From positions 35,028,501 to 35,092,500 of the forward strand of contig CM027383.1 in the NCBI GenBank assembly GCA_015680905.1: DNA of 64,000 nt, written 5' to 3'. The DNA comes from Coptis chinensis (Eukaryota; Streptophyta; Magnoliopsida; Ranunculales; Ranunculaceae). Position 1 is the first letter of the stretch, and every line of letters starts with the position of its first letter. The position numbers were made by a program, and so were the translations under genes. Positions 19,855-40,500 of the stretch are shown here, in pieces. The notes beneath the pieces were generated by a model that saw only the letters and a list, made by a program, of their open reading frames with translations, did not search any database and was not told where the DNA came from.

Positions 19855-20538
19855 CTATTTTACTCTTCTATGTTGCAAATATCGTTCTCTGGCTGCAGCC
19901 AAATCATGTTCATCTTTTCTTTTATGAAGATCTTGTTTCTTTCTATCTGATGATGGTTGTTCAACCATAATGTATGCTTGCATGAAAGAATGGACTTCTG
20001 GTTTGACATCCACCGCTACAATGTTGCTCTCAGAATGCGAGGATGTTTTAGCTACTTCTAGTTTCACATCTACCGCTGCATTATTGCTCTCAGAATGCAA
20101 GGATGGTTCAGCTTTATCTCTCACTTTTGTCTTGCCAGAATTTGAAGTTGAGTTAATCCTTGGAAGGATTTCTTTCCCTAAGGTATCACTCTTAACTCTT
20201 CCTTCCACTTTAGCGTCCAACACAACATTGATCTTTCGAAGGTTGGAATGAAATTCTCTCATGGCTTTTAAGTAACCAACAATGTCATTCTTCATAACAT
20301 CATATTTCTCCTCAAGCAAGTGATCTTCTTCCAACCATTTTTCATCCTCTGTGAGTTTCTTCTTATAAGCACTTGTAACAAATTTGGGTTTATCACCGTA
20401 CAGATGTTCATCTTTGCTTCTCTCTTTAGCTAGTTTTCTCTCCTTTACTATTCCATATTCATGTTTTCTGGCTTCTACATATTTCAATTTTCTCTCTTTG
20501 GGATCTTGAACTAAGGGACAAATTACATCGGCTTTCAT
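19855..20538 (-). pseudogene. NSRP1-like (nuclear speckle splicing regulator) retrocopy, 227 codons
   Basis: The frame matches the conserved core of nuclear speckle splicing regulatory protein 1 (DUF2040). It reads ERKLAKERSKDEHLYGDK and FVTSAYKKKLTEDEKWLEE, and, just upstream of the first Met and still in frame, VFYYDGVYDQMKADV. In the family this lysine/glutamate-rich coiled-coil block follows an N-terminal segment beginning KYGLQL, which is absent here; an in-frame stop lies about 110 nt upstream. There is no intron and the C-terminal half is diverged, containing a duplicated SHSESN..AAVDVK-type unit. It is probably a truncated retrocopy; expression from the open frame cannot be excluded. 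Confidence 0.6.
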
Positions 20539-20644
20539 TTGATCATAAACGCCATCATAATAAAAAACTATGGATCCTCTTCCAAGGCCTTCTTTTGAAT
20601 CAAGCCGTATTTCTTCATGTATATATGTAGAAAGCTCTTCTAGC

Positions 20645-21165
20645 TGTTATTTCTTTTTGCGCCCAAGGAAAACCCTCTATATCTTCACAGCTGGTTCTAA
20701 AGAGACGAAAGGTATAGAATGGCAGTGATTTATAGGAGTCTTTCTTGTTTAAAAACAATCCCAATTTAGCAACAAACAAAAAAAGATCAAATTTTCATCA
20801 CATCCAACAACAATAAACTCAAATTAAGTAACAAATTCAATAAACAATAAGAAATAAAGAAAAGGGTATTGATAAATTTATACATACACAGCAACACGAT
20901 CGGGATTGAAAGCACCAGTAATAGAGTTATACTCAAATCAGGAAGTTCTTTGTATTAGAAAAAAGCAGAACCCATGGGTTTCGAATCTCGGCTATTCTTC
21001 GTTCATCCAGTAATCTTCTTTGTAGCCCATCTTGGAGTATCTTTTAAATCTAACTACTTGAGGAAACCATAACTATTTGTCTTCTTTCACACAATTTTTT
21101 TGAAAGAACATGACATTGGAAAATTCAAGAATATACAAAAAGTACAACAGAAACACTCTTCACTT
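20645..21165. other. no recognised gene between the two retrocopies
   Basis: AT-rich sequence; no conserved frame, RNA or repeat that I can name. Confidence 0.3.
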
Positions 21166-21782: not shown

Positions 21783-21939
21783 TATCTTTAGGTAATTCCA
21801 TCGGGCACTCATCAAATTGGATTGGGCAACCCCTAAAAAAAAAGAAATTTTACAAGTTTGTCATATTACAAGTTTACCATCAAAGCCCAAGCCCAGCAAC
21901 CAATTCAACCGGTCTCGCCAAAACGAACCCCTCGGGTCG

Positions 21940-22440
21940 TTTGGGTGTGCATTCAAACGATCCCGCCATGTCGTTTGAGTGTACAGTCAAACGATTCCGC
22001 CATGTCGTTTGAGTTTACACTCAAACGGCTTGACCACATCGTTTGAATGTGCATGAAAACGACTCCACCACATCGTTTCAGAGTACACGCACTCGGTCTG
22101 AGTTTGTCGTTTAAAACTTGGGTCTCTAGAATTCCATGGAACGGTCTGAGCATGCCCACATCGTTTGAGTGTGCATGAAAACGACTCCACCACATCGTTT
22201 TAGAGTACACGCATTTGGTTTGAGCCTGTCGTTTAAAACTTGGGTCTCTGAAATTCCATGGAACGGTCTGCGCATGCCGTTTGAGTGTACACTCAAACGG
22301 CTTAACCACATCGTTTGAGTGTGTACTCAAACGGCTTGGTCACATCGTTTGAGTATGCATTTAAACGGCTTGTACATATCGTTTGGGGCTTATATGGACC
22401 GATGTGGTGAAGTCGTTTGGACTAAAATAATTGAGAAGTT
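21940..22440. repeat. GTCGTTTGA palindromic repeat array, left arm of the MULE
   Basis: More than a dozen copies of CGTTTGA or its complement TCAAACG, each with a CpG, often as face-to-face pairs. 22277-22300 is a perfect 24-bp palindrome (ccgtttgagtgt / acactcaaacgg). Inside, a unit of about 120 bp is repeated twice (about 22038-22155 and 22158-22277). Several long minus-strand frames across it are repeat artefacts. The same motif family recurs at 23735-23940 and 27236-27580. Confidence 0.85.
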
Positions 22441-22851
22441 ATAAAAACAAAAGAAATTCCTGATTAACCAATGATTAGTCCGATTAACCAATAAAAATTG
22501 ATTACATAAACACCAATTACACTTTTCTTATACATACATAAACACTGAACACTTTTCTTATAACACAAATCATTAATCGATCGTAATTGTACAATAATTT
22601 ATTTAAACAATTATCGGCAAAATTGAATTAGCAATGATCAATTATCAACACATCCCAATTGAATTAGGAAAATTGAAATCCGATTTAAAAAATTGGGTTA
22701 GGAACAACATAATTAGTTACTCCAACACAATTACATGCACTCTGCACTATTTATCTGTTATGACATAGTATCTATATAACCAAATTAAAACATGTAATCA
22801 AACATGCCAAAATCTAAAATAATGTAATCAAACATGCCAAAATCTAAAATA

Positions 22852-23275
22852 ATAATTTGTTTTATATCTAAACTTGTTATTTTTCATTTTTTTTTTACAA
22901 TTGTGAATCATAAACTAGTTTGGGGTTTGGGGTTCAGGGTTTACAAATTTCGAACCAACATATTTCACTTAATTATTCGAAATAATAATTTGTTTTATAT
23001 CTAAACTTGTTATTTTTTATTTTCTTTTTTAAAATTGTGAGTCATAAACTAGTTTGGGGATTTGGGGTTTAGGGTTTACAAATTTATGTACCGACATAAA
23101 AAAAATTTAATTTCAAACATATTTCACTAAATTATCCAAATCTAAAATAATAATTTGTTTTATATCTAAACTTGTTATTTTCTATTTTTTTTTTCAATTG
23201 TGAATAATAAAATAGTTTGGGGTTTGAGGTTTGGGGTTTAGGGTTTAGAGTTTACAAACATATTTCACTTAATAA
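22852..23275. repeat. three-copy tandem repeat of about 130-150 bp in the MULE left arm
   Basis: The unit containing aataatttgttttatatctaaacttgttatttt, followed by ataaactagtttggggtttg and a gggtttaca segment, occurs at about 22849-22975, 22982-23140 and 23146-23275. The ggtttggggtttagggttt runs resemble degenerate telomere-like (TTTAGGG) words, but there is no true telomeric array. Confidence 0.65.
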
Positions 23276-23734
23276 TTTCAAATATATCAAAATTTCAAAT
23301 TCTTCTACATAGAATACTCAAGTTCCCATTTACTCATCCTTACTCCTTTTTTTTATCAAAATCCTTATTCCTTACATAGAATATTCAAGTTTCTATACAT
23401 ACTTAAGTTTCTCTACATATTAGAATAATCAAGTTTCTCTAAATAGAACATGAAGATGAAGAAAAAGCATTTAAGGTAATGTTTGAGGTGTAACAACAAA
23501 TTAGAGAAAGAAAAAATAGAAGATATGTTGAAAGTGAAGAAGTGGAACAAAATGTTGAACGTGAAGGTGAAGAATTTGAAGATGCGACTAGTCGAGCAAA
23601 TGAGATGCCGAGAAATCGTCGACGACAAAGTGCAAACCTAAATAATGAGGTAACACTTGATTAGAATGAATACAAAACACTTGATTGATTGAATGAATAA
23701 ATGAATGCAAAACACTTGAATGAATACAAAACAT

Positions 23735-23940
23735 TAGGCCAAACGACATGGCTGGGTTGTTTGGGGATACTATGGAACGATATGGCTGGGTCGTTTGAGG
23801 ACACTATGGAACGACATGGCTGAGTCGTTTGGAGACACTATAGAACGACATGGCTGGGTCGTTTGGAGACACTATAGAACGACATGGCTGGGTTGTTTGG
23901 ACCCTATATGGAACTACATGGCTGGGTCGTTTGGACTAAA
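23735..23940. repeat. second AAACGACATGG..GTCGTTTGG array
   Basis: About five to six units of roughly 38 bp of the form acactatggaacgacatggctgggtcgtttgg. It lies just upstream of the transposase region and shares its core with the array downstream of the OTU region, so the two bracket the plus-strand transcription unit. Confidence 0.85.
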
Positions 23941-24257
23941 TTTAGTTAGAAGTTCATTTTTTTTTTTGTGACTTTGAAATCCCTCATTACCTAAATGCAA
24001 ATTGTTTGAGACTCTTGTTTTATTCTTCTATATGTAAGATTTTTTGCCGCTATCCGGGAACCGATTCTTTGCAAACTCGAATGACGTAGATTGTCAACCG
24101 ATTTTAAGTGATACAACATAAATTTTTACTACGGAAGAGGTATGATTGAGTAGGCATTGATTTCATTTTTTTATTTATTTTCTAGATGTAATTTTATTAG
24201 TGTATTAATAATGGTTGTTGTTTTTTATGTGTTTATGTCTTTCATACACGTAGCGAG

Positions 24258-25749
24258 GCAATCGGTTGGGCAACTGCTAGAAGAAAACAAGTTAATATTG
24301 TTGTGGTCATTGAAAAGTCGGAGTGTGCAAAGGGAAACTGAGTAGCAAGATTGAATTTGGCTTGCGAGTGCTCGGGTGTGTATTGGTCACACAAGAAGGA
24401 AGGCAAAGGGTGGGCTAATAAGAGAAGGTCGGGAACCAAGAAATCGGGATGTCCATTTAAGTTAAAAGGTGTTTTCCAATGCGACACTGTCGATAGTTGA
24501 AAAATATAAGCTAGAAATGGTATTCACAACCATGTATTGGCAAAGACCCTTAAAGGACATGCATTTGCTACTCGTCTGACCGTTCCAGAGTTCGAGTACT
24601 TGTCAGAGATGAGTAAGTGTGGAATAAAGCCTAAACAAATTTTAGATTCCATCAAGAATAGGTATCACGAAAACATGTATAGTATATCCCAAATCTACAC
24701 TGCAAGGCAAAAGATAAGGAAATTGGATATGAACGGTCTCACACAATTGCAGAGATTGCGTGAGTTGTTAGCAAAAGAATATTATTTTGAGGAGTTGAGA
24801 CAGGATGAGAATACTGAGGAGATAACGGGGTTGTTATGGGCTCATCCAGAAGGTGTTAAGTTGGCTCGGACTTTTCCAATAGTTTTCATGTTAGACGCTA
24901 TCTACAAAACTAATAGGTATCGGTGGCCTTTCGTACAGTTTGTTGGGGTGAGTTCAACATGGAAGTCTTTCACCATGTGTCAGGTGTTGCTTCAGTCTGA
25001 AACAACAGTCAACTATGAGTAGGCCCTGCATCATTTTAGTGGCGTGCTTGATGACATAAGCCCATCCGTGATCATGTCTAGCAGAGACTTGGCCCTGATG
25101 AGTGCCGCTGACAAAGTTTTCTCTAACGCACACAAGCATCTATGTAGATGGCATATCGCTACGTGCTTCTTTTCAAAATGTTACGATATATTTCCAACTA
25201 CAGAACTTGTAGAGAAGGTCCAGTTCTTGTGGAACACTGTAGTCAAATCGAAGACAAATGTTATTTTCCAGCGTAGATGGGATGCATTGGAAAAATATTA
25301 CAGGGTTGAGTACTCCAATTTTGTTAGTTATTTGCGAGAGACTTGGTTTCCTCACATGGATCAATTCGTATATTGTTGGACTGACCAACACATTCACTTT
25401 GGGAGTACAACGACCAATAGAATTGAAGGGTCTCATGCTCAGGTAAAGCGTGTATTATGAAATACAAACTGTCATGATTTTTTTAGTATGTTTAGCTTAA
25501 TCCACCCGATTCTAGAGATCCAGATGTCTGAGATTAGAGCTACCTTCGAGAGAAGTATGATTGTAACTCAGCACTATCACCGGATTTCTTTGTTTCGTGA
25601 ACTCAAGGGCCTTGTCTCACACAAGTGTTTGGACTTGCTATTTGAAGAAATAGATACCGGCTAAAGATGGAGAGATCAGGTGTTGGTGTTATTTGCGCAC
25701 GAGCCATGGAGTGCCATGTGCTCATGAATTAATTGAGTTTGAAGAGTAA
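24258..25749 (+). pseudogene. FAR1-type MULE transposase (broken)
   Basis: Domain order as read: a FAR1-like zinc domain (SGCPFKLKG and then a degenerate ARNGIHNH), a linker, and the MULE DDE core. The first acid lies in FPIVFMLDAIYKTN. The second motif reads VIMSSRDLALM where family members have a TDRDLAL-type Asp, so this acid looks lost. The third acid lies in TNRIEGSHAQVK. At the end a SWIM zinc finger (CWCYLRTSHGVPCAHEL) appears in a shifted frame. At least four in-frame stops and one frameshift interrupt the 490-odd codons. In this family the protein would cut and join the element ends in the nucleus. The OTU region follows directly in frame after one stop at 25747-25749. Confidence 0.8.
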
Positions 25750-25839
25750 GAGCCATTAACTACTATCAACCCCTTTTGGAAAACATTATCTGTTTCTCCT
25801 AATGTGTCACTGGGTGTTGGTCCCGATGTTACACCTTCG

Positions 25840-26970
25840 ATGAACTTGTTCATGAATAGGTTTGCAATGGTTTCTAAAGAAGAGCAGAGGGTTATGATTA
25901 GGAAGCTTATGGAGATTGTCGTACCAGAAAGTACATGGCTAGTACCGCCTCGTGAGAAAGCAAAAACCAAAAGTCAGCCGAAAAGTAGCTGCAGCAGAAA
26001 GCTTCCAACTGGAGATGAGAACTCTTCAAAGCGAGATCCAGCTCATTTTGAACATTCTCAACGTGACCATGAGGAGTGGGTCTCGTCACAACCAAACACT
26101 ACACCCATCCAAAACACCCACACCACACCAAGAAAGAAGTCTTCTCCAAAAATACCAACCCAAAACACCCACACCACACTAACAAATAAGTCTTATCCAA
26201 AAACACCAAAAACAACCACACCAAGAAATAAGCCTTCTCCAAAAACACCAAAAACAATCACATCAAGAAATAAGCCTTCTCCAAAAACAGCCACACCACG
26301 AAATGTGAGAGATGGGTTAGACTTTGGAAAGATGAGGGGTCATAAGGATTACGGGTTGGATATTCCTGAAGAAATACATAAATACATTGTTAGAGTTCAT
26401 GACCCTGTTGGCGATGGCAACTGCGGCTATAGAGCTTTCTGCATTGCATTAGGAAGAAACCAAGAAGATTGGCTGCAGATGATAAAGGACTTGTACCAAG
26501 AGCTTATTGACAACCTCCCCCTTTATTGTACTTTGTATAGTCAAAGTGAGGTTGTTTATACGATGAAGGAAATCCTACATGAAGAAGGTTACGCACCCTT
26601 AAATAAGTGGATGAACATGCTCTTTGCTGGATACCTATTTGCTTCAAGATTTAATATTGTCCTCATGTATTTAGGAGCTCATCAGTGCTTCCTTATCATG
26701 CCGCTGAGAACTCAAGCAAATCTTGAGAGAGTGAAAAAAATGTTGGGTAGCGCACATGTTGGTGGAAGTCATTTTGCCAATGTTGAACTTGTTGAAGATT
26801 GTTCGGTTCCTCTAGTAATGTGCCAATGGATTAGAGCTCGATATGATATTGCTAAAAGTTGGAATTTGGCCTTAACAGCATGGCAATTGCAATTTATGGC
26901 TTTGAACATTCCCAATCTAATATGGGAAAACGAGCCCGTTGAAGACCCAATAGTACATGTTATCGACTAA
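25840..26970 (+). CDS. OTU-type cysteine protease region of the MULE, 376 residues
   Basis: The open frame starts right after the stop at 25749; the first ATG is at 25840. Residues about 30-170 are basic and repetitive, with TPRKKSSPKIPTQNTHTT-like units rich in Thr, Pro and Lys. The OTU fold follows: DPVGDGNCGYRAFCIAL places the catalytic Cys at about residue 195 with Asp 192, and GGSHFANVEL places the catalytic His at about 311. OTU enzymes cleave ubiquitin or related conjugates; here the natural substrate is unknown. The position suggests it was the C-terminal part of a transposase-OTU fusion. Unlike the transposase and the PMD gene, this frame has no stop across 1.1 kb, so it may still be translated or may simply be younger in decay. 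Confidence 0.75.
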   Translation: MNLFMNRFAMVSKEEQRVMIRKLMEIVVPESTWLVPPREKAKTKSQPKSSCSRKLPTGDENSSKRDPAHFEHSQRDHEEWVSSQPNTTPIQNTHTTPRKKSSPKIPTQNTHTTLTNKSYPKTPKTTTPRNKPSPKTPKTITSRNKPSPKTATPRNVRDGLDFGKMRGHKDYGLDIPEEIHKYIVRVHDPVGDGNCGYRAFCIALGRNQEDWLQMIKDLYQELIDNLPLYCTLYSQSEVVYTMKEILHEEGYAPLNKWMNMLFAGYLFASRFNIVLMYLGAHQCFLIMPLRTQANLERVKKMLGSAHVGGSHFANVELVEDCSVPLVMCQWIRARYDIAKSWNLALTAWQLQFMALNIPNLIWENEPVEDPIVHVID

Positions 26971-27235
26971 GTTGTTTGTATGTTGTCGATATGATATTTT
27001 GTTGTAATTTGTAAATTCATTTTGACATGTTATTTTGATGTAATTTGGAACAAGTGTAATTTGATTTGATTTTTATGTTATTTAGAAAAAGTTGGAGTTT
27101 GGGGTTTTATTTTATTTGATTTGGAAATCGAGTGATCAACTAAGTTGATTCGGACGGCAATTGAGTGATTTGGAAATAATGTTCATATGTTGTCAATATG
27201 ATATTTTGATGTAATTTGATTTGATTTTACTTGAT

Positions 27236-27580
27236 TTCCCAAACGACATGGTCAAGTCGTTTGACCTTTATACCAAACGGTCTGAGCTGGTCGTTTGACC
27301 TTTATGCCAAACGGTCTGAGATGGTCGTTTGAGACAAAGTTGTCTGTTTTTTATCCAAACGATCTGAGCTGATCGTTTGACCTTTATGCCAAACGATGTG
27401 GCTGGGTCGTTTGGCCTTTATGACAAACGACCTGAGCTGGTCGTTTAAGACAGAGTTGTCTATTTTTTATCCAAATGGTCTGAGCTGGTCGTTTGAGACA
27501 GAGTTGTCTATTTTTTATGCAAACGGTCTGAGCTGGTCATTTGGCCTAAAGGCCAAATGATGTGGATGGGTCGTTTGGAC
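27236..27580. repeat. third GTCGTTTGACC array, downstream of the OTU gene
   Basis: About eleven units of the form gtcgtttgacctttatgccaaacgg(t)ctgagctg, each pairing GTCGTTTG with a nearby CAAACG. It ends in an (attt)n run at about 27585-27610. The stretch is inverted-repeat rich and could fold into hairpins. Confidence 0.85.
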
Positions 27581-27825
27581 AATTTATTTATTTATTTATT
27601 TATTTTATTTTCATTTTGTTTTTACAACACTTTCATTTCTAAAAAACAAACAATTTCCACTTTCAAAACATCAAATTCATATACTAATACATCAAATCGC
27701 GATCAAATTTAGATACACTTTGATATAAACTCAAATTCATAAACTCAAGTTCAAATTGATGTTGTCGCAGTAAATTCATATACACTTTGATATAAGCTCA
27801 AATTCATAAATTTACTTTGATGAAT

Positions 27826-27925
27826 TTATGTCTGTACCGCCCACCGCTATACTTGCACCTACTCAAGTTACTTTTTACATAAACTCAAGTTACTTTTTAC
27901 GCGACCCTGTTGGCGATGGCAATCA
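27826..27925. repeat. mosaic filler copied from the PMD and OTU genes
   Basis: 27826-27874 copies the antisense 3' end of the PMD gene (atgtctgtaccgcccaccgc, as at 28193). It is followed, after a repeated aagttactttttac, by gcgaccctgttggcgatggcaa, a near-copy of the OTU active-site coding stretch at 26399-26420. The two source pieces lie on either side, so this looks like templated repair filler inside the element. Confidence 0.7.
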
Positions 27926-28187
27926 AATTCAATTTGAATACGCAATCAAATTCAAATACATAAACTCTGTAAAAAAACTCCTGAAATATTTTTGCCATAA
28001 CTTCCTTTGTTTTATTGACATATTCATATCCAAAACTCATCAAACAACCTGCTAATAAATAAGTCATTGCAAACAACAATCCCAAACGCCATATTACAAG
28101 TAATGGCGCACAGTTATTACAAAATACATCAAATTCAAAAATACATGCATAAATTACATCAACATCGGAGGAAGCCGCACTAAAAAA

Positions 28188-30710
28188 TCAGTTATGTCTG
28201 TACCGCCCACCACTATACTTGCACCTACTCAAGTTGTACACCTCCTCGAACGAAGACCTTGCTTCTTTGGGAATATTATTCCCACCGGCCAATTGCAGAC
28301 CTCTCTCTAGCAATTGACTCGTTTCATCGATGACGTTGTTCTGTCGAAATAAGAATACAAAATAGTTATTAATTACCGTTTTGAAATAATAATGTGAGAA
28401 TAAGAATAAGAATACAAAACAATAAGAATACTCACAATCGGTGCATAAGATGGAAGTGTCTCCATGGAGAAATGGATAGGAAACTGCTCGCGATTTATCA
28501 ATCGAATGTGAGAATGCCTCACATACCACTCCATGTACTCTAAATAACACTCCCATAGATAAGTACAGATGGGTCCTCGATTGTTGGGTTGGATCATGTG
28601 ATTCTGTCATGAGTCCCAATATGCAGGCCCAACAGTTGTCCATGTCTATTTCACTTCATACCCGCGTCCGGCTACAGTCCTCAACGAGTAATTTGGTGTT
28701 GGAAGAGTTACAGGTATAAACTGCACATGACCCAACTGACGCATGACCCTTGTAACGCAGTAAATCTCCACAACGTCAAAAAAGCAGATCACTCCCTCAA
28801 AAAAGGTAATTTCATCGACTGGGCGTTCATCTCTGACATTCTTGTATGGACACCAATCAACCTTAAACAAAATAAATTGTCATTAATCACATACTCAAAT
28901 AATTAATTACTAAACAAAAATGAAATACTTACAGTCCACACCGCTATATCATCAATTATAGCTTGGTAATACTGCAATACATATGTTGGGTTCTCATAGT
29001 GTGTGGCGCTAACTGTGTGTTTAAGAACACGCGACCCAGCTAACTGATACTCAAAGTTTAGGATTGGCTTGAATAGCGGGAAGTACTCATAGATTCACCC
29101 CTAGATATATACACACACAGTTAACATACTAATAGAATAATATAATTAACATTAAAAAAAATCTGCAAAATATTTAAGTTTTACCTGTAGAAGAGTCAGG
29201 AAGCCCGAAACACCTTTTACCTTCACACACAAGGCAGTCCCAAGTGCTCTATATAAAAAGGCCAAAATTGCTGCACCCCAAGCATACTCGCCGATCTCTT
29301 TGAATTTTAGCAACTTGGTCAAATAATAAACAGGCACTCCGGTCCCAGACTTGTCGGGAAAGATGGTACATCCAAAGAAAAATAGTAGATAAGCTCTTAC
29401 AGCCCTCTGTACCTCCGTCAAAGTCGACACCTTCCCCGTTACACCTTGCCCTTTATCACAAACCTTCCCAGCAAACTAGCTCCGCAGGAATTCCAGCCTT
29501 ACCTTTGAAATGAACCGGGTCGCGTCTAACTCCTTTTTAATCACAGGCTCCAAGACACCCAGAGCACGGTGTAGGAGACTCTCCAATTGTTCACGAGTCA
29601 ACTCTGTGTTCCCTTTCACTGCTCTGCCTCTAATTGCGATGCCTAGGATTTGGGAGACATCATCCAAAGTCACAGTCATCTCCCCAAATGGCATATGGAA
29701 GGTGTTGGTCTCTGGATGTCACCTCTCCACAAACGGAGAGATCAACACCGGATCTTGATGTTTGTAACACCCAAATACACCCAGTCCTCCTAAGCTGAAG
29801 TTCAAATATGGGAGATCTTTTGAACTCTTTCTTGAGATCCCACTGGCTTAACTTGGCTAGATGCGGAACACACTTTAACACTCCGCGCTCCGCCTGAAAT
29901 AATAAAGATCGACTCAATAAGGAGAAGCAAAAGGTTTTGTAAAGACAAAAGAAAATCAAGATACTAAGTTTATGATAATACCTTATGTTCCCAAACATCA
30001 CAAGCCACATGCACCGAATAGTCATACAGAAGCTGAGACTCAGTAGGGCCACCACCATATACACCTCGTGTGTACTCCAAATCATCCTTGGATTTTCTCA
30101 CATAGTCTACCACTGGAGATGCTTGGACTTCAATCGGTGCTTCAACTTCCATCAATTCTTCTTCTTCCAAATCATCATCCTCCTCTTCTTCATCACCCTC
30201 CTCCTTTTCATCACCCTCTTCATCATCCCCATCATCACCATCATCATCCCCATCATCTCCATCCTCACCATCATCATCATCATCCCCATCATCATTAACT
30301 ATACTCTTCCCACGATCCATTGCTATATTTACATATACATCTAAATCTTTATCTACATCATCTAAATCTTTATCTATATTCTCAGTTTCACTCTCACTCT
30401 CAGTCTCAGTCTCACTATCTACATTACTCGGAACAACCTCATTGTGGTCCCCTCTACGCACTGAGGCCGAGGTGCCCACACTCTTTTTTCTCTTCTTCTC
30501 TCCTTCTACATCACCTACATTCGTAGGATCATCATCTGCTTTTCTATCACCTCTACGGACTGAAGCCGTTGTTTTCGACCCCTTTTCTCTCTTCTTCTCA
30601 GGCTCAGGTGCGTCACCGCGACCCGAAAAGGAACCCCTGCCACTAAACAACTTCTTTACACCATTGAATGTAGTTTTCGCTACATTCTTGACATTCTTTG
30701 ATCTAGGCAT
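28188..30710 (-). pseudogene. plant mobile domain (PMD) protein gene, broken
   Basis: Five exons are visible: 29982-30710, 29185-29893, 28933-29100, 28436-28861 and 28188-28340, with GT..AG borders. Exon 1 (MPRSKNVKNVAKTTF...) is basic and then has a long Asp/Glu tract. Exon 2 carries the PMD core: GCYKHQDPVLISPFVER, then HPETNTFHMPFGEMTVTL. Exon 3 has EYFPLFKPILNFEYQLAG. The domain is known from MAIN/MAIL proteins, which repress transposons and support meristems, and from MULE and Gypsy elements. Several stops sit where the family has Trp (TGG to TGA, in exons 2, 3 and 4), plus a frameshift upstream of the core. It is convergent with the transposase-OTU unit. Confidence 0.8.
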
Positions 30711-30719
30711 TGCTACAAA

Positions 30720-31122
30720 GAAAAAAAAAACGAGTATTAGTAACTATAATAAGTTTAATTTACACCTTGGTTCAGTTTAAGGTTTACCATAAACAATAGG
30801 TTATGAAAAAAACAAAAAAAATAGACATCAACAGAAACGTACCAAACAAAAAAGCAAAGAATTCATATGCTAACTCATTCAACATTTCAACTCCAATCTA
30901 GTTAAAACAACAACAATCAATGTACACTGTCAATCCTGAATTCTGATAACTACTGTTACATAAAAAACACAACAAACAAACAATAACATAAAACAGCTAT
31001 GTTTGAAAGAATAGTTAATAAATAACCACTATACAAATAACACTACTAAAAAACCTAAGGTACTGAAAACCAGCTTGTATAACTTACCTATTAACTTAAC
31101 AATTAGAATAGCATTACTTTTC
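30720..31122. other. upstream region of the MULE PMD gene
   Basis: AT-rich, no frame or motif recognised; it probably contained the promoter of the PMD gene. Confidence 0.25.
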
Positions 31123-31384
31123 CTAATCATAAAAATTCAACTTTCTGCAGAGGCCCATATCAATTCTCTTAAAATCCAATCCAAGTTTCTTTACCCCCTC
31201 AACTCTCTCCACACCATCTAGTCTAGCTTTACTTGGAGCAGCAGGGCATGTATCTGCAACTCCACTCAACAGACCACATTTAGGAGGCGTCTCAAGACCA
31301 TCTTTCTCGCATAAAGCCTCATCAACAACAACAACCCCTTCAACTTGTTTCGCGACGATCAAGTCCAACAATGACTTCAAATAT
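31123..31384 (-). pseudogene. unnamed MULE exon, copy 1
   Basis: An 85-codon minus frame (VEGVVVVDEALCEKDGLET, PPKCGLLSGVADTCP) with no domain I know. Its part at 31248-31377 is duplicated at 32140-32269 with over 90 percent identity. Both copies flank the captured host fragment, so this is one exon of the element split or duplicated during capture. It could be an upstream exon of the PMD gene or a separate small gene. Confidence 0.4.
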
Positions 31385-32090
31385 TGGGCATGGATAAAGG
31401 ATCTTCAATTGCAATAGATATGCCAATGAATGTCACTGCCATCATTATCTATCTTGCAATTGTTTTGGCGGGTTATGTTGTTGTATCCATTACTGATAGT
31501 TTTGCCTCTAGTGAAATATCAATGAGGCTTATGATATCAAAAGCAAAAGCAATATTCACCCAGGTTAGGCTTTGTTTGTTACATTTTCACTAGAACATGA
31601 TAATTTTAATTTCTCAACGGCTAGTATATATGCAATAAGTTAGAAGTATTTGGTGGGTTTATGTGTGTTTGCTTTTGCATATAAACAGGCATCATGCAGT
31701 TGATAGGTTAGACTTTACCTAGAAGCTTCTAGCCTTCTAATTAAAAGGCCTTGTTTTCTACCTACTGAGATTATGAATCAATGAGGATATGATGATGTCT
31801 ATATACATGGTTCATGGCATTTGTCAAAGGTTTTCTCTACCCACCCCTGTCTCTCTTACTTGATTGGGTTGTGGTTGAAATTGAATCCACTGCTTAGTAT
31901 CCATGGTTCATGGCATGCAAACATATATTATCTCCAAATTCGATGCAGTATGCTTTCTTTATCATGACTGGGTGCAATATGATTTATTTATCTTATATAT
32001 ACTTTAAATAAAGAATTATGTGTCCTGAGATTTATTTTAACTAATAGAGCTACGGAGCTACCTTATTCTTTCATGCAGACCAACAAATGG
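31385..32090 (+). pseudogene. captured exon and intron of an acyl-activating enzyme gene (AAE17/18-like)
   Basis: 31389-31563 encodes [17 protein letters not shown] followed by [20 protein letters not shown] and [11 protein letters not shown] recognise these from the peroxisomal acyl-activating enzymes 17/18 of plants (AMP-binding superfamily). The exon ends CCCAG and is followed by GTTAGG, a donor site, and then AT-rich intron-like sequence. The capture was therefore of genomic DNA and not of a spliced transcript. It lies between two 130-bp direct copies of MULE sequence, as in Pack-MULE transduplication. The orientation is opposite to the flanking MULE exon. Confidence 0.75.
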
Positions 32091-32131
32091 ATGCAATAAC
32101 TACGGAGCTACCTTATGCAATAACTACGGAG

Positions 32132-32371
32132 CTACGGGTATGTATATGCAACTCCACTCAACAAACCACATTTAGGAGGTGTCTCAAGACCATCTTTCTC
32201 GCATAAAGCCTCATCAACAACAACAACCCCTTCAACTTGTTTCGCGACAATAAAGTCCAACAATGACTTATACATCTTATCCAACAACACTTGTTCTTCC
32301 TCTTCTTCTTCTAGCATTACTACATCCTTAACCATATCATTACTAGAACCACCAAAGTTTATCGACAACAT
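32132..32371 (-). pseudogene. unnamed MULE exon, copy 2
   Basis: A 79-codon minus frame beginning MLSINFGGSSNDMVKDVV, then an EEEEEE stretch, and then the same KQVEGVVVVDEALCEKDG block as copy 1. It is likely the original 5' part of the exon; the identical block is shared with 31248-31377. Function unknown. Confidence 0.4.
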
Positions 32372-33001
32372 ACAAAAAAATTCATTCTAAATCAACTATA
32401 ATCGCAAACAAACATAGCTTCTATTACAGTTCATTATATATTGAATTCATCTTTGATTCCCCTCACCTTTTTTAGAATGTGATTACGATGGACAAACAAC
32501 TTGAATACTTCAAAGAGTACAAGACAAGAATCGATCAACTGGAAATGAATCAAAAGGGACAAAGCAAGCAAAATTAAAAGTTCTTACCTTCAACTGGAAA
32601 TGAATCAAAGAGTATAATGCAAGAATCGAACAACTGGAAATGACGAAATTTCAAGCTTTCACCGCTCTCCCAACTTGCAAAAGCTTCAATGGCGAAATTG
32701 CAAAAGCTTCAATGACGAACTTGAGAACCAAATGTCGCGACAACTCATAATGTTTTGTTGTTGTGAGAAAATGCTTTTGTTGTTGGATTCGATTTGATTT
32801 TTGTGAGAAAATCGCAAATTGGTTTGAGTTTTTTGTTGAGGGTTTTGGGTAAGAGAGATGACCGGTTACAACAATTTTTCCCAGTTTCACGATTAGGTTG
32901 CGGGGTTGTATTGGGCTTTTGTTGGGCTTCACAATTTGGGCTTGGGCTGGAGGTTGCCCAATCCAATTCTGGTGGCGCCCAATACAGGACTCTATCTTTA
33001 T

Positions 33002-34020
33002 CATTTCAAATTGTCTAAGTGAAAGTTTTAAAATATTTTATTAGAAATTTATCATATCAAACAAACACACGTGGTTTTGTTTCAAGATCTTTTGCAATTA
33101 ACTTCAAATGTTCTAATAATGGTTTTGAATTGTACTTTGGAGAAATTTCACGAAAAACTTATGTACGGAATCATATAATTGATACATAAAATCATGGTGC
33201 TTATTCCTAAGTTTTCAACCCAACATCGTTGGTTGCATGTTTAAAATTGCAAAGTTAACTTGCTTGAAATTGTTGATTCTGCTCCTAGTACAATGAGAAG
33301 TATGGAACTCGCGGTTGATTTTATTTATTGTCTTGCTGAGGCCGGTTGTTGGCCAGATGGTACTTGTAAAAAATTATTAACTTTTTTTGTGAAAATGTTC
33401 CGTGCAGATGATATTTGGCGTAATGGAAAGGCATTTGGTGCATCTAACTATATGTGAGTTCATTTCATTCCATGAGTTGAGCACTGTTTTAGAATCTCAC
33501 GAATTTCAGAATCACAAATATTCGGATCTTATCCAACTTATTCCTTTAGTGGATCTAAGTTTGGGGACTCGTGCCTTTTCATCATTTGTTTCTGAGGTGC
33601 AAATGCATCGTGGTACTTCTCATCGATCGAAACATCTTCTCGAGTTGTTAACCATACCACTCATTACCTTGATATCTTACTAGTAAATTTGGTTAGACTA
33701 TTTAAGTTCGGAGTTACTAATAACATTAGAGCATCTTTAATGGTGATAGCTGAAAAATGTGGAACATTTCGAGATTATTTCGAACATATTGCTCTAAACC
33801 ATCTAACAATGTGAAACATTCCGCAAAACATTGAAAAGTCGAAACAAAATTGTGTGACAGTGTCTCTATCCCTTTTGCACCCTTTTGTTTTTTATGTGAC
33901 AAAGTATTGTGATGTTCTCCTCGATCACAATATCTTGTCGAGTTACTGACCACTGATTATCTTAATTCTCTATTGTTAATATAGTTAGACTATTTGAATG
34001 CGGAATTACTGAAGACATTA
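33002..34020 (+). pseudogene. decayed exons of an unidentified gene, first copy (MULE target)
   Basis: 33010-33240 is a near-copy of 34300-34540 and carries the right flank of the MULE insertion. 33260-33457 reads DSAPSTMRSMELAVDFIYCL, then KLLTFFVKMFRADDIWRNGK. After a frame change, 33460-33683 reads SDLIQLIPLVDLSLGTRAF and HRSKHLLELLTIPLITL. 33905-34020 is a diverged second copy of about 33609-33726. The peptides look like helical repeats of a large cytosolic protein, but I do not recognise the family. Multiple stops and duplications indicate a pseudogene. Confidence 0.5.
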
Positions 34021-37529: not shown

Positions 37530-40500
37530 CCTACTTATAATAGCGATATTAGGCCTTGATATATTTATACTTCAAAATTAGACTTTAGTCCAACTTTTGG
37601 TAGTCAAACTCGTTAACTGCCTTGTATTTTGCTTCATACCTAGAATACCCTTACACGTGTGTCTCACGTACAAACCATAAATTTTGATTTTAGGCTTGCT
37701 ACATGGCAAACATCTAAAGCGTGTAGATCTACCAAAGCACCACCATTGATTTCCACTTTCGCGTATCTCAAAAAGGTGGTCATAAATGACGAGGGAAACA
37801 TTTCTTTTCCCTCACTTGTGCTCTCTCTCACTCAACTTACACTCGTCCTCTCTCTTACTTTAACCCTAACTTCTCTCCACTGAACCATAATTCGCACTCA
37901 TTTCAACTTAATCCTCTCAGTCGAACCGAAACTTGAACCATAATTCTAACTCATTTCAACCATAATTCTTCTCAGTTCTCTCATTTTCATTTAACCCTTA
38001 AAGGTCTGACCTTTACCATCGAAGGTCATTTGGGGTGGAATATTTGTGATTGTTTGAGGTGACCATTTGAGGTGATTGCGTTGATCGGGGAATTTTCTTC
38101 AAGGGACCATTATTGTTTTACATCGTTGATCGAGGAAGTTCTACGTAAGTGTTATTGCATGTGTTTGAAGTTTGCTTACTGTAAATTTTAGGACCAAGGT
38201 CTAATTTTTCATTATGTTCTAGTACTATAAACTAAATTACTAGTATACAGTGATACCTAACCCTAACTTTACTGAAAATTTGGGCTTTTGTTTGCCTGTT
38301 ATCTAATTGTCTATTTTTCGTTAATTTTTTTGGTGTAGTATGGCTTCTCCTTTACTGGGTGTGAAGGAATTTGTGGTTCATTATGGTGGTTGTTGGGGCA
38401 TAACTACCCCAGGGAAGCTTAAGAGAACCGATTACAAGGGTAGGAAGAAATCAAAATTGCAAATTGATGGTGATGGGTTATGTATGCTTGATGTTAACAA
38501 AGATGTAAGGAAGTTGGTTGGTGGAGTTCATGTGTAAGATATCACAAGATGCACACCTGTTGCATATGTGGGATGAGTTAAAGTCTGAAAAAGACAAAAA
38601 ATATCACTTAATTATTTGTCTCCCCAGCACCAAAAGTCACAAAGTTTACTAGAAGCCCTCCTATTATCACCACTTCAAGCAGTAACACTCTCCCAACAGT
38701 TACGTCTACACCAAAACTACCTAGTACACCTAATAAATCAATAAACGTTCATGATAGTGTTAAAAGGTCACCCAGATTCACTAAAAGCTGCTCAAATGTC
38801 CTCACACTACCTAGTACACCTACTAAAGCAAAAAAAAGTTCAAGAAAGTTGTAGAAGATCACCCAGATGAAGTCAAAGTTGCTCAAATGTCCCCACAACA
38901 CTACCCACTACATCTCAAAATCCCACAGTTCCCACAGTAGCAATGGCACCTATAAGAAGGTCCATGAGACATAATAGAGAGCCATTGGTACTTGAAATTT
39001 CTGATAATGAGGGTGATAATGTTATGAAGGGGCCTGAAGAAGTGATTGCTCAATCTAAGCTAGGTGATCTAGATAGTGATGGTGTGAGAACATTGAGCAG
39101 TCTCAGTTAGATGAGTCGGAACATGAATACATGGAGGCATTGAAACATGCAGATGATCATGAAGTGCATGATGTTGGAGATGTGGAATTGGATGGTGTTC
39201 CTGATGTAGAATTGAATGAATGGTGTAGCAGTGGATGAAGTGCTGAATGGTGACCGTGACAATGACTCTGACAATGACTATTATTATGGTGAAAAGTTTG
39301 GTCCCACTGTTGGAGGGAGAAATGAAGCTGACAATGCATTTAACTATGAATCTAATGATGAGGATGAGGAGTTCTTACCCGAGAATTCAAAATGTGGAGA
39401 TGACTTTAACTTAGAGGATTGTGGTGAGCCATTTGTGTTGGAAGAAAAAATGAAAGACTTAGAAGAAGAATTGCAAGGTTCTGTGTTGGGCAATGTAGTT
39501 AGGGAAACAAAGAACATATATGAAGCAGAAGAGATAGAAAAGGTTTCAGACCCACCAGTTATAAATGAACTATGTGACTTGAGACCCAAAATGACTTGGC
39601 CTACCTTAGAAGATTGCAGAGATTTCTTCAAGTTCAAGGCAATTAAGCAGAAGTTCAGTTTTAGGCAACATAGGGATGACAAGGTCAGATACGTTTTGTT
39701 ATGCAAGGATGCGAAATGTAAGTGGACTATAACAACCACTATTGCAAGGGATGGTCACACTTTCATTTTGAGAAAATACAATGATGAACACACTTGTGAA
39801 GCAAATGAGAAAAACAAGTATTGTCAGGCCACATCACTTTGGGTTGCCAAACATTTTCAAGATAATGTGAGAGATCATCCAAATTACAAGCCAAAAGATC
39901 TTGAAGCTGATATGTTTAGCATATTTGGTGTTAAAATCTCATATCGGTCTGCTTGGAGTGCCAGAACACTTATTCTTGAAAATTTGAATGGAAATTATGA
40001 GGAAGGGTTTGCTCTTGTCCCAGAATTGTGTAGGTAAATAAAGAAAGACAATCCATGAAGCATTGCTGAGTGGTCTAAGAAGAATGGGACTGATGAATTC
40101 ATAGGTGTTGTGATAACATTTAAGGCTTCTTTGGATGGGTGGTTGAATGGGTGCAGACCAGTAATTAGTCTTGATGGGTGTTTCCTTAAAGGAAAATATG
40201 GTGGATGTTGTTTAACTGCTATAGGGTTGGATTTACATTTGTAATTTCCTCTTGGGATTTACATTTGTAAAGGTGAGAATAAAGCTACTTGGATGCAATT
40301 ATTAAGTCAGCTAAAGCCATTTCTGATTCAACACAGGGATCCTTTGACTTTCATCTCAGACAAACAAAAGGGATTAATACCAGCCGTGGCACATTACTTC
40401 CCAGATTCAAATCACAGGTATGAACTTGATTACTTCCCAGCTGTGGCACATTACTTCCCTTATTCACTATGCTTGATTAATAATAAACTATAACTTCTTG

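Follow-up and report, generated by a model that had tools for sequence, protein, structure and literature searches.

We describe a composite Mutator-like element (MULE) of Coptis chinensis that lies in a 64,000-nucleotide stretch of contig CM027383.1 (assembly GCA_015680905.1, positions 35,028,501 to 35,092,500 of the forward strand), the whole of which is referred to here as the window. The element carries a transposase gene followed by a region resembling ovarian tumour (OTU) proteases and, on the other strand, a plant mobile domain (PMD) gene, and the two genes converge on an array of short palindromes (Table 1). It is one decayed copy of a multi-copy transposon family, ordinary in kind, unusual in its combination of genes and surprising in the apparent exchange of PMD as a module.

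Table 1. Features of the element, in window positions (a dot denotes no strand).
Feature	Position	Strand	Remarks
Target-site duplication, left copy, TATCTTTA	21783..21790	.	Matches 32993-33000 exactly
Mutator-like element	21791-32992		11,202 bp
Left terminus, 41 bp shown, core AATTGGATTGGGCAACC	21791..21831	+	Recurs in own genome
Left subterminal array of 24-bp palindromes CAAACG-N12-CGTTTG	21920..22385	.	
Short array of the CAAACG-N12-CGTTTG palindrome	23740..23865	.	Upstream of transposase gene; 1-2 mismatches
Transposase part: FAR1-like N-terminal domain, MULE domain, terminal SWIM zinc-finger motif	24237..25737, approximate	+	
Pro/Lys/Thr-rich repeated linker, SWIM to OTU-like region	25948..26301	+	Direct repeats D7, D9
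OTU-like C-terminal region	26302..26967	+	Shares one frame with SWIM and the linker where copies are better preserved
Cys box GDGNCGYRA	26410-26436	+	In OTU-like region
Candidate His codon	26770	+	In OTU-like region
Intergenic palindrome array	27240..27577	.	Separates the convergent 3' ends of the two genes; constant and exchanged modules meet here
PMD gene, type I, frame broken	28188..30711	-	PF10536; exon limits approximate, from cross-type tblastn
PMD exons	Acidic N-terminal ~30711-29975; core ~29917-29154; then ~29094-28918, ~28879-28390, ~28345-28188	-	
Right arm	30745..32540	.	Direct repeat 31244-31377/32136-32269
Captured exon fragment, AMP-binding enzyme gene	31390..31590	+	PF00501, 2.9e-8
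Right terminus, 41 bp	32952..32992	-	17-bp core of left end, inverted
Target-site duplication, right copy, TATCTTTA	32993..33000	.	

The transposase gene in the window is disrupted by stops and frame changes. The MULE domain PF10551 scores 30.5 bits on one piece of it (cut-off 27.6; 5.1e-7) and 24.9 bits, below the cut-off, on another, and reaches 3.4e-19 on a piece of copy c1_38M. The FAR1 domain PF03101 is narrowly above its cut-off in the sister copy c3_87M (28.8 against 28.1 bits), where AFT (PF08731) scores about equally, and a SWIM pattern CxC...CxH was read by eye in open reading frame (ORF) P0001. In two copies, c9_74M (488 aa) and c9_39M (537 aa), a single open frame runs from the C-terminal transposase part through SWIM and the linker into the OTU-like region; upstream of it in c9_39M, in the identical frame and behind stops, is the MULE domain. 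Judged from these frames, the transposase and the OTU-like part most likely form one protein. The ratio of nonsynonymous to synonymous divergence (dN/dS) is 0.37-0.58 for the transposase and 0.89-1.26 for the linker, which serves as an internal control. The convergent gene has a very acidic N-terminal exon, and its PMD exon matches PF10536 on the minus strand at 1.1e-18 in the window and at 1.5e-41 in copy c8_16M, which is of the same PMD type.

The termini agree at 26 of 41 inverted positions and share a perfect 17-bp core, read by eye, which bears out an earlier description of the ends as imperfectly inverted. The first-pass annotation had also reported a 9-bp target duplication with one mismatch; the duplication is present, and it is 8 bp and exact. 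Searches of the source genome (935.6 Mb, 116 contigs) found at least 41 matches to the left end (40 scored of 690 first-look candidates) and at least 40 to the right end (40 scored of 474), and the last ~145 bp are common to all nine copies in which the right end was read. Among six copies with both ends read, exact 8-bp duplications flank four, namely the window element, c4_80M, c4_72M and an element near C7:55.1M, with the ninth base mismatched in all four (read by eye), and the duplication of c2_79M agrees at 7 of 8 positions. The element on C7 (C7:55097151-55103941; L004, L013) is 6.8 kb long, with window-type ends and an exact TATTTTAA duplication, and has no OTU or PMD match among those listed (102 of 2404 OTU and 150 of 1919 PMD candidates scored); it is possibly a shortened derivative.

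Those 102 OTU loci and 150 PMD exon places were used to ask how often the two genes stand together, seven second pieces of OTU loci and one partial left-end row having been dropped before pairs were counted. A convergent PMD exon lies 0-6 kb downstream of 42 of the 102 OTU loci, at a median gap of 2.09 kb. None of the 102 has a same-strand PMD exon within 6 kb, and two have one within 20 kb; by our own arithmetic, about 0.05 pairs would be expected by chance from the density of the 150 PMD places. The shortfall at the other 60 OTU loci reflects, at least in part, PMD places beyond the 150 scored, and all three of these loci that were fetched blind (C9:9.57M, C9:39.5M and C4:57.5M) have a PMD gene. 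Conversely, 108 PMD loci lack a listed OTU region; at each of four that were likewise probed blind (C2:61.7M, C7:81.5M, C1:77.98M and C8:34.7M, all of the window's PMD type), transposase-OTU sequence was found at the predicted place, at 85-92% identity.

PMD sequences are very abundant in this genome, with 3773 first-look candidates, of which 117 were scored and many contain stops, so further PMD-bearing transposon families probably exist in it. The same abundance is what would favour the view that a transposase-OTU MULE and a separate PMD element came to be nested by accident. However, the order is always convergent, with a median gap of ~2.1 kb across the 42 pairs and no same-strand neighbour within 6 kb, ends and duplications are common to the copies, and all seven directed follow-ups were positive; we find a nest scarcely credible and have rejected it. 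Detailed comparisons were made on the window element and 14 other copies, 11 of the 14 picked for having both OTU and PMD listed. Transposase, OTU-like region and PMD are present in all 15, and the PMD was listed or known beforehand in 12. The first-pass annotation had proposed a single lineage of elements holding both genes convergently, to be recognised by full-length copies with one gene order and target duplications. The outcome bears this out: the ends, the transposase-OTU gene and the PMD gene recur jointly, and 8-bp duplications are exact in four of the six copies with both ends read. Copies with one part but never both, or ends that fail to recur together, would have marked an accidental nest, and neither pattern was seen.

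A more complex relationship appears when the PMD genes are compared. They are of two old types, with core identities to the window of 85-97% for type I (the window and seven copies) and 68-78% for type II (seven copies); a PMD exon at C83:81471-82187 (PF10536, 1.9e-37) is 64% identical to the window exon, like type II. Across the transposase and OTU-like segments, each of the 14 other copies has 88-93% identity to the window, whatever its PMD type. For the PMD exon, synonymous divergence (dS) averages 0.08 among type I copies, 0.12 among type II copies and 0.54 when the two types are compared, and for the transposase and OTU segments of these copies it is 0.08-0.12 within PMD types and 0.11-0.14 between; at fourfold sites the divergence between types is 0.256 for PMD versus 0.057-0.088 for transposase and OTU. 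With PMD type assigned from PMD identity before any tree was built, the type must have changed at least twice on a backbone tree of 1884 transposase-linker-OTU columns, where starred branches make both changes unavoidable; a tree constrained to unite the type II copies is rejected by the approximately unbiased (AU) test (p 0.003; log-likelihood difference 59). The PMD tree sets types I and II apart with 100/100 support. In sliding windows along the element, divergence between types is about that within types over 24101-27100 and first rises in 27101-27300, at the start of the intergenic array; from 27101 to 30700, up to the start of the PMD gene, it is 0.18-0.46 versus mostly 0.05-0.12 within types, and the non-coding parts of this segment jump too. 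The contrast in dS, the conflict between trees and the break at the intergenic array thus indicate that the PMD and transposase-OTU segments have different histories, and modules appear to have been exchanged between family members.

That no exchange took place, and that PMD simply evolves faster in two old sister lineages, would be suggested only by the divergence itself. Within each type, though, PMD dS is like that of the transposase and OTU segments and only the comparison of I with II stands out, the jump extends to non-coding DNA, and the AU test rejects the required tree, so this is very unlikely. As to direction, either module may have moved. The transposase-OTU half could be the mobile one, gene conversion having homogenised it, together with the ends, across elements whose PMD genes had always differed; the uniform identity of this half regardless of PMD type is what one would then see, and the tree conflict is identical for either direction. 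In nine copies, however, the final 145 bp on the right are also unstructured by PMD type, and two homogenised segments would be needed instead of one exchanged. We regard movement of the transposase-OTU half as a tentative option. The PMD dN/dS of 0.34 between types points to constraint on the protein during their divergence, and the values within types (0.52 and 0.72) could reflect decayed copies of a once-constrained gene.

The break between modules falls in or next to an array of palindromes of strict geometry. The unit is 24 bp long with a period of 34 bp; in the 15 copies, 85 of the 90 exact half-site pairs that lie within 30 bp are separated by exactly 12 bp, and 75 of the 83 gaps between units measure exactly 10. 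Position profiles of 360 anchors on both strands extend the palindrome, by reading, to roughly CAAACGA-NN-TGGCCA-NN-TCGTTTG. The window holds 24 matches with up to two mismatches, 23 of them within the element, versus 1.7 expected from shuffles. At a tolerance of one mismatch, all 15 copies contain the intergenic array, 9 of the 12 with upstream flank fetched have the left array, and no unit was found in the right-side stretches of the 15 copies (nine reaching the right end). No significant domain was found in the array-bearing ORF 21953-22339. This geometry suggests a putative dimer-binding site, and because the CAAACG/CGTTTG core and its spacer are identical with both PMD types, the sequence between half-sites differing partly by type, the transposase would be the simplest candidate reader of the arrays. 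Co-evolution of the array with PMD type had been considered when the left array looked different in one type II copy; it was set aside, the core and spacer being common and the left ends not clearly structured.

A plausible scenario, to which as a whole we give a probability of about 80%, is that the window element is a decayed copy of a high-copy MULE family in which PMD types have been swapped on a constant backbone with palindrome arrays and convergent genes. The transposase would cut and paste the element via the terminal core, and an element-coded dimeric factor, most simply the transposase, would bind the CAAACG-N12-CGTTTG arrays. Exchange may have come about through recombination or gene conversion between co-resident copies. 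The PMD protein might, with less assurance, be a helper against host control, so that a divergent PMD swapped onto a working backbone would be favoured.

Several observations weigh against parts of this scenario. Copy c1_38M, in which both ends were read, has no target duplication; all 15 copies are decayed, and the whole transposase-OTU frame is open in none of them. CpG dinucleotides are kept at 202 of 238 half-site positions (85%) versus 493 of 617 in the transposase and OTU segments (80%), near-equal figures that point to no special protection of the arrays from methylation-linked decay, an idea that was dropped. The other points concern the OTU-like region. The hallmark of OTU proteases is a D-G-N-C box with a downstream His, and the majority state across the 15 copies has both, as a GDGNCGYRAF Cys box and an HFVNV His box. 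The putative catalytic His is kept in 13 of 15 copies and the Cys in 11, so that the Cys is retained less than the average residue (0.91), and c9_39M, which has the longest open frame of the 15, lacks it. Against curated Pfam the region reaches no cut-off (Peptidase_C65, E 0.09-0.26). Its dN/dS of 0.60-0.69 is moderately below that of the linker, in pairs that are not independent, and could be compatible with decayed copies of a once-constrained gene.

Other comparisons of the OTU-like region gave little. A genome profile search with PF02338 found four places, none of them coinciding with an OTU locus listed for the family, and a single phmmer search against solved structures gave no match. 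Compared by profile with a host OTU exon, the region aligned over 11 columns, at a probability of 1.8%. A predicted structure (predicted local distance difference test, pLDDT, 38) was too poor to use. The region therefore appears OTU-like by motif and not by profile, and of the earlier label 'deubiquitinase-like' the Cys box stands, while the Pfam and phmmer results do not support it. It may be a diverged, inactive or structural tail and no protease: the missing profile match and the loss of the Cys from four copies speak for this, and the intact Cys and His boxes of the majority state and a dN/dS below that of the linker speak against it. We think this possible, and would not put it higher.

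The arrays also admit a different reader, a VANC-like anti-silencing protein of the element, perhaps the PMD protein. In VANDAL elements tandem motif arrays in non-coding DNA are the targets of VANC, and array geometry is strict here; in the cited part of the same source, however, VANC21 motifs have a single orientation and evolve with the protein (PMC5735166). The palindrome core, in contrast, is identical with both PMD types, and the arrays show no special CpG retention, which makes a VANC-like target rather unlikely. A bolder version of the swapped-module scenario would make the PMD an exchangeable cassette, with one backbone repeatedly gaining either constrained type by recombination at its own arrays, a divergent PMD escaping sequence- or protein-specific host control, and the OTU tail shielding the transpososome from ubiquitin-dependent removal. 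It is unlikely to hold in full.

Counter-silencing by PMD, also raised in the first-pass annotation, is a hypothesis. The host PMD proteins MAIN and MAIL1 silence transposons, and the use of MULE-carried PMD genes is described as unknown in the cited parts of two sources (PMC7156037, PMC5418596); PMD proteins thus stand on both sides of the conflict between transposon and host. The exchange of PMD types provides a natural experiment, with enzyme and ends constant and two PMD types in place: if PMD counters silencing, methylation and small RNAs would be expected to differ between copies of type I and those of type II. For binding, the palindrome arrays with their strict geometry offer a concrete candidate DNA target.

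Among the other features of the element, we note that the right-arm DNA of the window has no match in the 14 other copies. From the PMD promoter to the last ~145 bp the copies differ, with some stretches common to several: c3_114M and c9_39M have 1.5 kb in common at 94%, and several type II copies have the first 0.3-0.9 kb in common. The AMP-binding fragment has counterparts elsewhere in the genome at six places with 93-95% identity and at 15 with 70-76%, and it fits the capture of gene fragments reported for MULEs in the cited part of one source (PMC2528002). No significant domain was found in the right-end ORF 32651-33037. The left arm contains three degenerate direct repeats of ~135-165 bp with GGGTTTAGGG-like stretches (22854-23240). 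Outside the element, a host-like gene adjoins it at 19858-20646 on the minus strand (NSRP1_N, PF09745, 1.2e-18), and a second, different MULE lies at 39216-40034 on the plus strand, with a 273-aa ORF containing the MuDR-type DNA-binding domain PF03108 (4e-9).

The window family has the MULE transposase domain and a duplication within the 8-11 bp of the superfamily, flanking inverted ends. Plant proteins with MULE and OTU domains occur in annotation databases. Searches of open-licence papers turned up no report of a plant MULE that combines PMD with an OTU-like fusion. The comparisons that follow hold for the cited parts of each source. Antisense PMD genes are described in several plant MULE groups by Dupeyron et al. 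2019 (PMC6446971). Among these, the MUDR/MUDRAVI2/MDR-type elements resemble the window family in their SWIM transposase, often antisense PMD and terminal inverted repeats; they differ in having 9-10 bp duplications, where given, and no listed OTU, whereas the window family has 8-bp duplications and a FAR1-like N-terminus. Compared by table features and not by tree placement, the window family agrees with the dicot/monocot subgroup of Jittery-type MULEs in 8-bp duplications (where given), N-terminal FAR1 and SWIM, but the table shows neither PMD nor OTU for that subgroup and the window family carries PMD and an OTU-like region (PMC6446971). The cnidarian MULE MuDR-6_HM has an 'Ovarian Tumour Gene', with PMD not listed (PMC6446971), and 'Ovarian tumor otubain' genes appear in a table of soybean bacterial artificial chromosomes (PMC2613891).

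Capture of a cysteine protease of the ubiquitin/SUMO kind is also seen in KAONASHI (KI) MULEs and in ULP1-bearing MULEs of melon, rice and grapevine, in which ULP1 is reverse to the transposase (KI-MULEs) or in either orientation (the others), whereas the window family has an OTU-like region that continues the frame of the C-terminal transposase part (PMC2528002, PMC13317346). VANDAL elements with VANC anti-silencing likewise have tandem motif arrays in non-coding DNA, of a short, oriented motif in contrast to the 24-bp palindrome with fixed spacer found here (PMC5735166, PMC10398659). Capture of PMD by MULEs was described, and anti-silencing already speculated upon, by Ikeda et al. 2017 (PMC5418596). 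Antisense PMD genes in MULEs and the anti-silencing idea are thus already published, and what the window family adds is two PMD types exchanged on one backbone, the palindromic arrays and a variable right arm.

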